A stretch of DNA of 32,625 nucleotides, from assembly GCA_031291305.1 (NCBI GenBank), contig JARLJH010000055.1, positions 1-32,625 on the forward strand, written 5' to 3'. How positions within the stretch are numbered: position 1 is the stretch's first letter; each line of letters opens with the position of its first letter. Source of the DNA: Rhodoferax sp. Its GTDB lineage: Bacteria > Pseudomonadota > Gammaproteobacteria > Burkholderiales > Burkholderiaceae_C. The notes beneath the pieces were generated by a model. It was given only the letters and a program-made list of their open reading frames with translations. It did no database searches and was not told the origin of the DNA. Below are positions 6,495 through 32,625 of this stretch, in pieces. The position numbers and the translations under genes are program-made.

Positions 6495-7454
6495 ATGATG
6501 AACGCCACCCTGCCCCCCCGCCGCCCGCTGCTGGCGGCGCTTGCCTCGCTGGTTCTGCCCGGCTTTGGTCAGTTTTACAACGGCGACCTGAACCGTGCCA
6601 TCTGGCTGTTTTTGATCTTTGCGCTGTTGTGCATTCCGGGTGTGGCGCTGGTCGCGCTGTACCTGCCCGATCAGTGGATGCTGCCCACCCTGCTATTGGG
6701 TCTGGCGGCCACGCTGGGGTTGTGGGTGTATGCGGTGGCAGATGCCTGGCGCACGGCACGTCGTCAGCCCAATGTTCCGGCCAAGGGGTGGCAAATCAGC
6801 GGGGTGTACGCGCTGGTGTTTGTGTTGTGCGACCTGCTGACCCTGCCCTTGCTGAGCCTGTATGTGCGGCAACACCAGGTGGAGCCGCTCAGGATTCCGT
6901 CGAGCAGCATGGCACCCAGCGTGCAGGCGGGCGACATGATCTGGGCCGACAAACGCTACAACTGCCCAGGCTGCAAGAGCGGCGTGCACCGGGGCGACAT
7001 TGCCATCTTTGCCTATCCCAACGACCGCAGCGTGCGCTACATCAAACGGGTGATTGGCTTGCCCGGTGACCAGATTGAGCTCAAGGACCGGCAGGTCTGG
7101 GTCAACGGCCAGGCGCTGAGCAGCACCGGGGCCAGCCCGGCCAACGGCGTGGTCACCGAGACGCTGGACGGCCGCCAGTGGCAGGTGCAGTGGGTGGAGC
7201 CGCCCGCCAGTGCCCAACCCGCCGCCAAGTTGCCCCCGATGAACCGTGTCAGCCACGCCCCCGCCCAGACACTGCAACTCACGGTGCCCGACGGTCAGGT
7301 TTTTGTGCTGGGTGACAACCGCCTGGGCAGCGTGGATTCACGCAGTTTTGGCACCGTGCCCATGCAGGACATTCTGGGCCGCGCCCGCCAGGTCTGGTTT
7401 TCTTCAGATGCACACGGGGTGAACTGGTCGCGGCTGGGGCTGGTGTTGCAGTGA
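6495..7454 (+). CDS. lepB: Signal peptidase I with an added membrane domain
   Basis: 319 residues from ATG 6495, preceded by AAGGA eight bases upstream. The catalytic core is complete. The nucleophile is Ser138 in PSSSMAPS and the general base is Lys184 in YIKRVIGLPGD; the conserved GDNRLGSVDSR box is at 273-283. The enzyme removes signal peptides on the periplasmic face of the inner membrane. Before the core, residues about 12-125 hold an LPGFGQFYNGD motif and three to four hydrophobic segments, more than the two of a standard LepB. A Cys pair (NCPGCKSG, about 156-162) sits between nucleophile and base. The gene follows the sigma and putative anti-sigma genes by 34 bases and is likely in their operon, which suggests an accessory peptidase under ECF control rather than the housekeeping copy. 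Confidence 0.9.
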   Translation: MMNATLPPRRPLLAALASLVLPGFGQFYNGDLNRAIWLFLIFALLCIPGVALVALYLPDQWMLPTLLLGLAATLGLWVYAVADAWRTARRQPNVPAKGWQISGVYALVFVLCDLLTLPLLSLYVRQHQVEPLRIPSSSMAPSVQAGDMIWADKRYNCPGCKSGVHRGDIAIFAYPNDRSVRYIKRVIGLPGDQIELKDRQVWVNGQALSSTGASPANGVVTETLDGRQWQVQWVEPPASAQPAAKLPPMNRVSHAPAQTLQLTVPDGQVFVLGDNRLGSVDSRSFGTVPMQDILGRARQVWFSSDAHGVNWSRLGLVLQ

Positions 7455-30453: not shown

Positions 30454-30879
30454 TTATTGCACCACCAGTTCGACGCGCCGGTTACGCGCGCGTCCGGCAT
30501 CGGCGTCATTGCTGGCAACCGGCGCCAGGTTGGCCACGCCACGTGCCAGCAAGCGTTTGCCGTCGATCTGGTATTGCCGGATCAGCGCGTCCGCCACCGC
30601 CTGGGCGCGCTGTTGCGACAAGGCCAGGTTGGCGTCCAGGCCACCCTCACTGTCGGTATGGCCAACCAGATAGACCTTCAGAGCAGGCTGTTGGCGCAGC
30701 AACTTGGCGATTTCATCGAGCTGCGCCTTCGATTCGGCTTTCAGCACGGCCTTGGCGGTATCGAAATAGATGCCATATAGCGCGATTTTTCCATCGCTTT
30801 GCAGACCCTTTTTCAGGGCAGCGGCATCGACCGTCACTTGACCGCCGAGCATCGCCTGCGGTTCGGCGATCTCAAGATA
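30454..30879 (-). pseudogene. OmpA-like carboxy-terminal half of a disrupted DUF4892-OmpA gene
   Basis: The OmpA peptidoglycan-binding domain is intact: GIYFDTAKAVLKAES, VYLVGHTDSEGG, LSQQRAQAVADALI and the end RARNRRVELVVQ. It lacks its own start and signal peptide. Joining it across the IS630 element, with one TA kept, restores an unbroken frame: the upstream fragment ends FTAT-, then YLEIAEPQAMLGG continues into this domain. It was therefore the anchoring half of an outer-membrane-associated protein. An internal ATG (30852) gives a 132-residue frame, but that product would not be exported. Confidence 0.85.
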
Positions 30880-31992
30880 TTGATCCGGCCCGATGAAGTT
30901 TTAAGCTGCATATTTGACGTGCCGATCCTGAAAGTAGCCAATGACCCGCTCGGGCGTGTGCTCCAGCATCGTCATATGTTCTGAGGCCGCCTGGCGTAAT
31001 TTGGCTTTGGTGCGCACCGGCACACGCTTGCTCATCTCCTGCTTCAAGTCTGCATTGAGCCGCTCCTCAGGATTGAGCTGCGGGCTGTAGCTGGGCAGGT
31101 AAAACAGTTCAATCTGTTCTTTTCTTTCGGCTACCCAGGCCTTGACAACCTTGCTGTGATGTACCCGCAAGTTGTCCAGAATCAGGAACACCTTTTTGCC
31201 TGCATCCTTGATCAGGGCTTGCAGGAATTCACAGAATTTGTCAGCGTCAAATGATTCCTCAATGATCATCCAGCGGGTCTTGCCTTGATTGGTGACGGTG
31301 GCGATCATGGAGAGCTTTTGGCGGGTGCCGCCCACAGTCAAAGCCACAGGTGTTTTGCCTGCTGGAGCGAAGCTTCTGCCACGCACATCAGTGTTAGTCA
31401 GGGCGGTCTCGTCACCCCAGTGGATCTCAGCACCCTCACGTTTGGCTCGCTGCTCAATGCCGGGGTATTCACCCTGCAACCAAGCCTGCACCGCCTCAGG
31501 GTTTTGCTCGTAGGCGCGTTTGATGGGTTTTTGCGGTGTGAAGCCCCAGCGCGCCAAGTATTTGCCTATGCTGCGCACGGGCAGTTTGATGCCGTATTCC
31601 TGCTCGATGAGTTGACCTACGGCTGCGCGGCTCCACAGGAAGAAGTCCATCTTGAGTTGTTCAGGGCGCTTGTCGATGATGATGCGCTGGATGGCCTCTT
31701 CCTGCACAGCACTGAGGGCTCGACCGTCTCCCATGGGGCGACCACGCCGGGCTGGGCGTATGGCTGCCCAGCCACCTTCTTCGAATAGGTCAATGGTAGC
31801 GCGTACCGTCGGGTAGGTCAGACCGCTCAGTTCAACGATCTTCATGATCTTGATGGCCTTCTTGTGCAATCGCACGACTTGCTTGCGCCGCTCGTGGAGT
31901 TGCTCCAGGGTTTGATTTCTTGCGCTTTCTTTTTCCATGCGGGTTGGATCAGGAAATTCATGGAAAGTTCAAACTTATTTGGGCCGGATCAA
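30880..31992 (-). mobile_element. IS630-family insertion sequence, complete
   Basis: 1113 bases flanked by TA at 30878-30879 and 31993-31994, the target duplication of IS630 elements. The ends are inverted repeats: TTGATCCGGCCC perfect, then 9 of the next 13 bases match. It carries one full-length transposase gene and lies inside the DUF4892-OmpA gene. The intact ends suggest recent insertion. Confidence 0.92.
30901..31938 (-). CDS. IS630-family transposase
   Basis: 345 residues, uninterrupted. A helix-turn-helix region (about 20-70: SGLTYPTVRATIDLFEEGG) and a winged-helix segment precede the DDE domain. Catalytic Asp in IHWGDETAL (about 175), Asp in FLILDNLRVHHS (about 255) and Glu in YSPQLNPEERLNADL (about 292) are present, so it should be active. 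It recognises the element's terminal repeats and inserts at TA. The stop codon falls 21 bases inside the left end of the element. Confidence 0.95.
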   Translation of the reverse strand: MEKESARNQTLEQLHERRKQVVRLHKKAIKIMKIVELSGLTYPTVRATIDLFEEGGWAAIRPARRGRPMGDGRALSAVQEEAIQRIIIDKRPEQLKMDFFLWSRAAVGQLIEQEYGIKLPVRSIGKYLARWGFTPQKPIKRAYEQNPEAVQAWLQGEYPGIEQRAKREGAEIHWGDETALTNTDVRGRSFAPAGKTPVALTVGGTRQKLSMIATVTNQGKTRWMIIEESFDADKFCEFLQALIKDAGKKVFLILDNLRVHHSKVVKAWVAERKEQIELFYLPSYSPQLNPEERLNADLKQEMSKRVPVRTKAKLRQAASEHMTMLEHTPERVIGYFQDRHVKYAA

Positions 31993-32486
31993 TAGGTGGC
32001 GGTAAAGTCCGTTTGGTACACCTTGGCGGTGTGCAACATGACATGCACCGGACCGGCGTTGCCTGGCAGCGTGCCATAGGTCAGGTAAGCGTCCTCCGTG
32101 CCCACCATGTTGGGGCCACCCAGGCCACGCATCTGGTCACCCAGGGCCGACCCTGCGGGTTGGCGACTGCGGCTGGAGGCGAAATCAGCCTGCTTCATCG
32201 TCTCGTAACGGCTCTCAAGGCCGTTGTGCTCACTGTCGCAGCCGCGGTCTTGCGGGGTGCACCGGAACACCGTCTTGAAACCGGCGCTTGCCAGCGCCTG
32301 TTCGTAATTGCGCTGCACCTCCAGGCGTGTCTTTCCGGGCGGGGCGAAATAAACCAGACGGGTGATGCGCCCTTCCACCGTAACCGGTGACAGGAAATGG
32401 AGCTGCCGATCAAAACCGATCTGACCAGGAAAACTGGTTGTATCGAAAGGCAGTTGCTGGTAAGCCAACAGCCAGGAGTTTTGATA
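31993..32486 (-). pseudogene. DUF4892 amino-terminal half of the disrupted gene
   Basis: The visible frame has the DUF4892 signature: an opening YQNSWLLAYQQLPFD, then TVEGRITRLVYFAPPGKTR, EVQRNYEQALASAGFKTVF, and the conserved Cys in FRCTPQDRGCD. At its downstream end it runs into the IS630 element and stops at once (TAT then TGA). At its upstream end the frame continues into the 3' end of a group II intron rather than into a signal peptide, so an amino-terminal piece of the protein lies beyond the intron, outside the window. Both ends are thus interrupted. Confidence 0.8.
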
Positions 32487-32625
32487 ATCGAGATAGGAAG
32501 AAGCCTCACGGCCCCTCCCTCTCACACCACCGGACATACGGGTCACGTATCCGGCGGTTCCTTGAAACTTTGTTGATCTCATGCTGCCTTGGCCCTCGCC
32601 AATTCGGGCAGCCCCATTTGACGAA
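32487..32625 (-). mobile_element. 3' end of a group II intron (domains V and VI)
   Basis: On the minus strand a domain V hairpin covers 32558-32526: a nine-base stem (ACCGCCGGA with TCCGGTGGT), a two-base TG bulge on the 3' side, and a four-base upper stem. The CGC triad is in the lower stem. Domain VI follows as GAGA-GGGAG-GGGCC, a GTGA loop, GGCTT-CTTCC, a bulged TA, and TCTC; the bulged A (32494) is the expected branch point, seven bases before a GAT end. A minus-strand frame ending at 32579 (RQMGLPELARAKAA then stop) could be the tail of the intron protein. The element continues outside the window. Confidence 0.75.

Follow-up and report, generated by a model that had tools for sequence, protein, structure and literature searches.

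A gene at the right end of the window, by which we mean the whole stretch of 32,625 nucleotides that was analysed, appears to have taken two independent insertions. It would code for an exported protein whose N-terminal domain is DUF4892-like and whose C-terminal domain is OmpA-like. The gene seems to have been entered by a mobile group II intron, in sense orientation and between CGT and T. This site separates two codons, so that neither exon is damaged and a spliced transcript would regain the reading frame. An IS630 element has entered a TA 494 nt downstream of the intron, parting the N-terminal from the OmpA domain, and this would be the step that broke the gene. To this explanation as a whole, two independent insertions with a spliceable-looking intron and a gene-breaking IS630 element, we assign a probability of about 90%. 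The intron, the IS630 element, and the interrupted gene represent an essentially ordinary case of known elements.

The OmpA-family gene and its homologues

The window is the entire contig C21 of the genome (G000), whose assembly comprises 4,984,719 bases in 69 contigs. The last part of the gene (30454..30879, reverse strand) encodes an OmpA-like domain, which is complete (PF00691, positions 1-98 of 98, 73.7 bits at a cut-off of 27.2). The N-terminal domain is encoded by the first part of the second exon (31993..32486, reverse strand), which could be aligned with 14 homologues. It is DUF4892-like, but its match to PF16234 reaches only 16.1 bits, compared to a Pfam cut-off of 28.8, and two homologues scored 12.9 and 25.3 bits. 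Thus, the OmpA half of the label DUF4892-OmpA, which a reading of the sequence alone had given to the gene, holds, whereas the DUF4892 half stays below threshold. The predicted protein comprises 344 residues and has the same length as the homologue L009. The homologues were found among 54 candidate stretches, 14 of which encode a relative. In all 14 the gene is one continuous open frame, whose start is uncertain in L014 and L015, and none contains the intron segment, so that the comparison with uninterrupted homologues proposed in the sequence-only reading came out in its favour. Identities to the homologues are 22.6-35.8% in the N-terminal part, which is too distant for a selection test, and 36.7-73.0% in the OmpA part. 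The gene is rare. A protein search of the genus and order detected it in one of 60 genomes, its own, and a profile search in two of 89 genomes of the genus, the second of which (G088) matches at positions 3-65 only. Within its own genome the second exon is encoded at a single place according to the profile search.

The domain order is that of PA1624 of Pseudomonas aeruginosa, in which a DUF4892 region at the N-terminus precedes an OmpA-like domain at the C-terminus, as described in part of PMC7716261, with the difference that DUF4892 is sub-threshold here. The same part of that paper presents the OmpA-like part of PA1624 as devoid of glycan-binding motifs, while the OmpA domain of the gene studied here covers the whole profile.

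The IS630 element

The two halves of the gene are separated by an IS630 element of 1,113 bp (30880..31992, reverse strand), which is delimited by its matching ends and by the flanking TA, the two copies of the target duplication being located at 30878..30879 and 31993..31994. The outer 12 bp of the ends are identical, as are 23 of the outer 30. The transposase, an open frame of 345 residues (30901..31938, reverse strand), has the same orientation as the interrupted gene and is recognised by NF033545 (transpos_IS630, 239.7 bits at a cut-off of 100) as well as by PF13358 and PF13592. In its transposase, matching ends, and TA target the element resembles the IS630 family, and no difference was seen. 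It is present once in its own genome. Matches were found in 26 of the 89 genomes of the genus, own included, and in three of the others they extend over the full 1,113 positions at 96, 95, and 87% identity, with the same length and ends.

The N-terminal frame ends at the edge of the element (31989), and no export signal is seen by eye at the start of the OmpA half. Removal of 30880-31992 together with one TA rejoins the halves in a frame that is open to the final stop, as had been predicted from the sequence, while the other three offsets tried are not open. With the gene divided in this way, it very likely no longer gives rise to a working product.

The 3' end of a group II intron at the contig end

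Upstream of the second exon the window contains the last 139 nt of a group II intron (32487..32625, reverse strand), and with these the contig ends. The stretch is identical at five contig ends (C8, C14, C21, C22, and C33). C21 stops at 32625 because the intron occurs at least six times in the genome and the assembly breaks at it. In the assembly, the copies extend only 133-138 nt from the 5' boundary and 139-140 nt from the 3' boundary. Domains V and VI were located at 32487..32559 (reverse strand) with RF00029 (38.8 bits, E 4.2e-6). This score is just below the Rfam gathering score of 40, and a search of the window at the gathering threshold accordingly gave no match. The assignment of the whole segment 32487-32582 to domains V-VI, as made earlier, thus stands up to 32559 but fails for the remainder, where the intron-encoded reverse transcriptase/maturase has its stop codon at 32579-32581. 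The last codons of this protein extend from there to the contig end (32579..32625, reverse strand).

The related full-length intron L057 carries matches to domains D1-D4 (112.9 and 57.9 bits), a domain V match of 40.8 bits, and an open frame for a reverse transcriptase/maturase (TIGR04416, 418.2 bits; also RVT_1 and GIIM). The end of this frame and the window at 32579-32625 encode a nearly identical peptide up to the stop (by eye). Judged from this likeness at the peptide level, the window copy is assigned to a putative reverse transcriptase-encoding intron, and the open reading frame start at 32582 is an artefact. It was rejected as spurious, the exon starting at 32486 and 32579-32625 being the end of the reverse transcriptase. 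An RVT_1 search of the own genome revealed two reverse transcriptases other than this one, as well as a fragment that stayed under the cut-off, and the body of the window intron is not among them. A different reverse transcriptase gene lies at G000:C51:218697-219286 (L006) and is, in pieces, 68-72% identical to the DNA of the related intron.

Further copies of the intron in the genome

With the 5' end of L057 as query, six contig ends were matched in the own genome (C3, C13, C18, C7, C69, and C20), besides two weaker matches on C51. There are thus at least six insertions, of which three are in sense and in frame, one is antisense in a gene, and two are located elsewhere. Six 5' ends stand against five 3' ends, so that one 3' partner was not found. 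Apart from the OmpA-family gene, a sense and in-frame copy resides in the last codons of nadC (start of C20, L066 and L077; end of C22, L004), a gene for which the only other match in the own genome is 27% identical. The third such copy (end of C7, L064; end of C8, L002) interrupts a gene that is found in 6 of the 89 genomes of the genus and that, by eye, seems to encode a thioredoxin-fold or binding protein. The antisense copy (start of C69, L065; end of C14, L005) is in a gene that by eye resembles those of BON-domain proteins. The copy on C18 directly follows a terminator-like hairpin behind a pckG-like gene (by eye), and the copy on C13 borders on an imperfect hairpin repeat (L115:7765-7806 and 7350-7391), whose second copy is 81% identical and starts 415 bases upstream. 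This repeat may resemble an integron attC site.

In general, most bacterial group II introns are found outside housekeeping genes, according to parts of two papers (PMC4424553; PMC6003770). A genome with several sense and in-frame insertions, one of them in a conserved metabolic gene (nadC), is of interest in this respect. For Azotobacter, part of PMC4465626 describes a group II intron located at the end of groEL or close to it. It resembles the nadC copy in occupying the end region of a conserved gene, but it differs in the gene and, according to that paper, in the lineage (5' insertion). The sense copy in the tail of nadC suggests that splicing is likely but is no proof of it, and an altered tail translated from an unspliced transcript might be tolerated. 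As the antisense copy reveals, genes in which splicing would be of no use are entered as well, and the mere presence of the intron in a gene therefore does not suffice to show that splicing makes it tolerable.

The first exon and the intron boundaries

The sequence-only reading had placed the missing first exon upstream, beyond the window. It was found on C3 (G000:C3:139-255, reverse strand), where it adjoins the intron 5' end at C3:1-138. This exon is an open frame of 39 codons, which appears signal-peptide-like by eye, continues with the conserved stretch of the family, and supplies exactly the N-terminus that is missing from C21. By eye, it is unlike the other five 5' exons. The hydrolase gene beside exon 1 has some match in 55 of the 89 genomes of the genus, the best two pieces being 52-53% identical in one genome and the rest at most 36%.

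C3 and C21 were joined by homology, not by reads. The exons could therefore stem from different gene copies or have been rearranged by recombination between intron copies, given that contig ends alone are seen, that the intron is repeated, and that one 3' partner was not found. However, the second exon is encoded at only one place in the genome, C3 carries just the absent N-terminus with the junction on the residue expected from the homologues, and three other contig pairs also match each other. A false link is thus highly improbable.

The exons and the intron meet at CGT followed by GTGTGCC at the 5' boundary and at CGAT followed by T at the 3' boundary. CGT precedes the intron at all six sites, and T follows it at all five. 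Group II introns have the end consensus 5' GUGYG and 3' AY, with which the ends of the window intron, 5' GTGTG and 3' CGAT, agree at the boundary fixed by uninterrupted relatives. These relatives were taken from two other genes. nadC was matched in 58 of 89 genomes, own included, and in 19 of 19 loci inspected, taken from the best ones, it continues past the intron site without an intron. The nadC exons abut at zero spacing in all three loci tested of these 19 (30, 21, and 21 of 45 bases identical), while the next best spacings give only 16, 15, and 14 of 45 bases. Three of five loci from other genomes aligned well enough to the gene split between C7 and C8, one of them ending short of the junction, and in both loci tested of the five the exons abut at zero spacing as well (39 and 35 of 45 compared to 16 and 16 at the next best spacing). 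The zero exon spacing in 5/5 comparisons (three for nadC, two for the C7 and C8 gene) means that the intron inserts without target duplication. Placing the 5' boundary two bases earlier, within the GTGTGTG run, was rejected because none of the three sense pairs would then be in frame. That one base on either side belongs to the intron is ruled out by the uninterrupted loci of relatives, both for nadC and for the C7 and C8 gene; the run hides two exon bases.

When the same boundary rule is applied to the OmpA-family gene, its exons meet in frame, and the intron, in sense, separates two whole codons. Of the 14 homologues aligned, the seven that were displayed have a conserved Arg before the junction, replaced by Lys in L022, and Tyr or Phe after it. 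The case illustrates cleanly how comparison with uninterrupted relatives can fix the boundaries of a group II intron even when the contigs end inside it.

Probable independence and consequences of the two insertions

The stretch between the intron and the IS630 element (31993-32486) measures 494 nt, in agreement with the earlier estimate of about 500 bases. That one gene carries two elements only 494 nt apart might suggest that the gene or the site attracts mobile elements. We regard such a hot spot as very doubtful: the targets differ (TA versus CGT followed by T at six sites), TA is common in the gene (1, 12, and 10 occurrences in its three pieces), the homologues are uninterrupted in 14 of 14 cases, and the intron is found at five further, unrelated places. 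Independent insertion remains the preferred reading, and the double insertion as such is a coincidence that carries little general significance. By a calculation by hand, one of six introns evenly spread over 4.98 Mb would hit a given gene of 1.03 kb with a chance of about 0.1%, and with an assumed tens of IS elements per genome the coincidence would be met somewhere in a few per cent of cases.

It is also conceivable that decay of the gene, under relaxed selection, preceded both insertions. These would then be neutral events in a gene that was dead anyway, and splicing would not be required of the intron. This would fit the rarity of the gene, which makes it dispensable at the genus level, and the IS630 element certainly interrupts it. 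But the three coding pieces contain no further stop or frameshift, and the OmpA domain is complete, so that we consider prior decay unlikely. Relaxed selection or a hot spot, the two causes put forward in the sequence-only reading, are therefore not demonstrated, while its view of one gene with two insertions is supported by the delimitation of both elements and the alignment of the exons with the homologues.

Returning to the reading of two independent insertions, the intron can probably be spliced because its position, compared to the uninterrupted relatives, is exactly in frame, in sense, and between codons, and we think it reasonably likely that it splices in vivo. The exact junction at a codon boundary also supports the earlier suggestion that the IS630 element inactivates the gene while the intron need not, splicing being presumed here. 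The IS630 element and not the intron is thus probably the inactivating event. It is more tentative, at slightly less than even odds, that all of the following apply together: that this intron family is tolerated in conserved genes of this bacterium by splicing, that the normal end of nadC depends on splicing, and that the OmpA-family gene was alive until the IS630 element arrived.

Related introns in the genus and on plasmids

The 139-nt 3' end was matched in 15 of 89 genomes of the genus, own included (E up to 0.001). Among the matches listed and the ten stretches fetched, L057 is 88% identical to L051 over 1.9 kb. On plasmids, 36 records match the intron 3' end, the best being Polaromonas sp. 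E19S with 79.1% identity over 96%. Compared to bacterial reverse transcriptase-encoding group II introns (RF02001, RF01998, and RF00029; TIGR04416) the intron is alike in its 5' GTGTG and domains V-VI, in having a related full-length copy (L057) with D1-D4 and the reverse transcriptase/maturase frame, and in inserting without target duplication. There is no categorical difference; what stands out is that a single genome has three sense and in-frame insertions, including that in nadC.

Two minor observations were made. In a relative, three intron 3' ends in the same orientation are found within about 6 kb (G094:C37:31784-37991), perhaps in a tandem or nested arrangement. In the own genome, a few kb upstream of exon 1 on C3 (L070:2367-4332), there is a row of genes that by eye resemble those for ArsR, ArsC, and an Acr3-type transporter.
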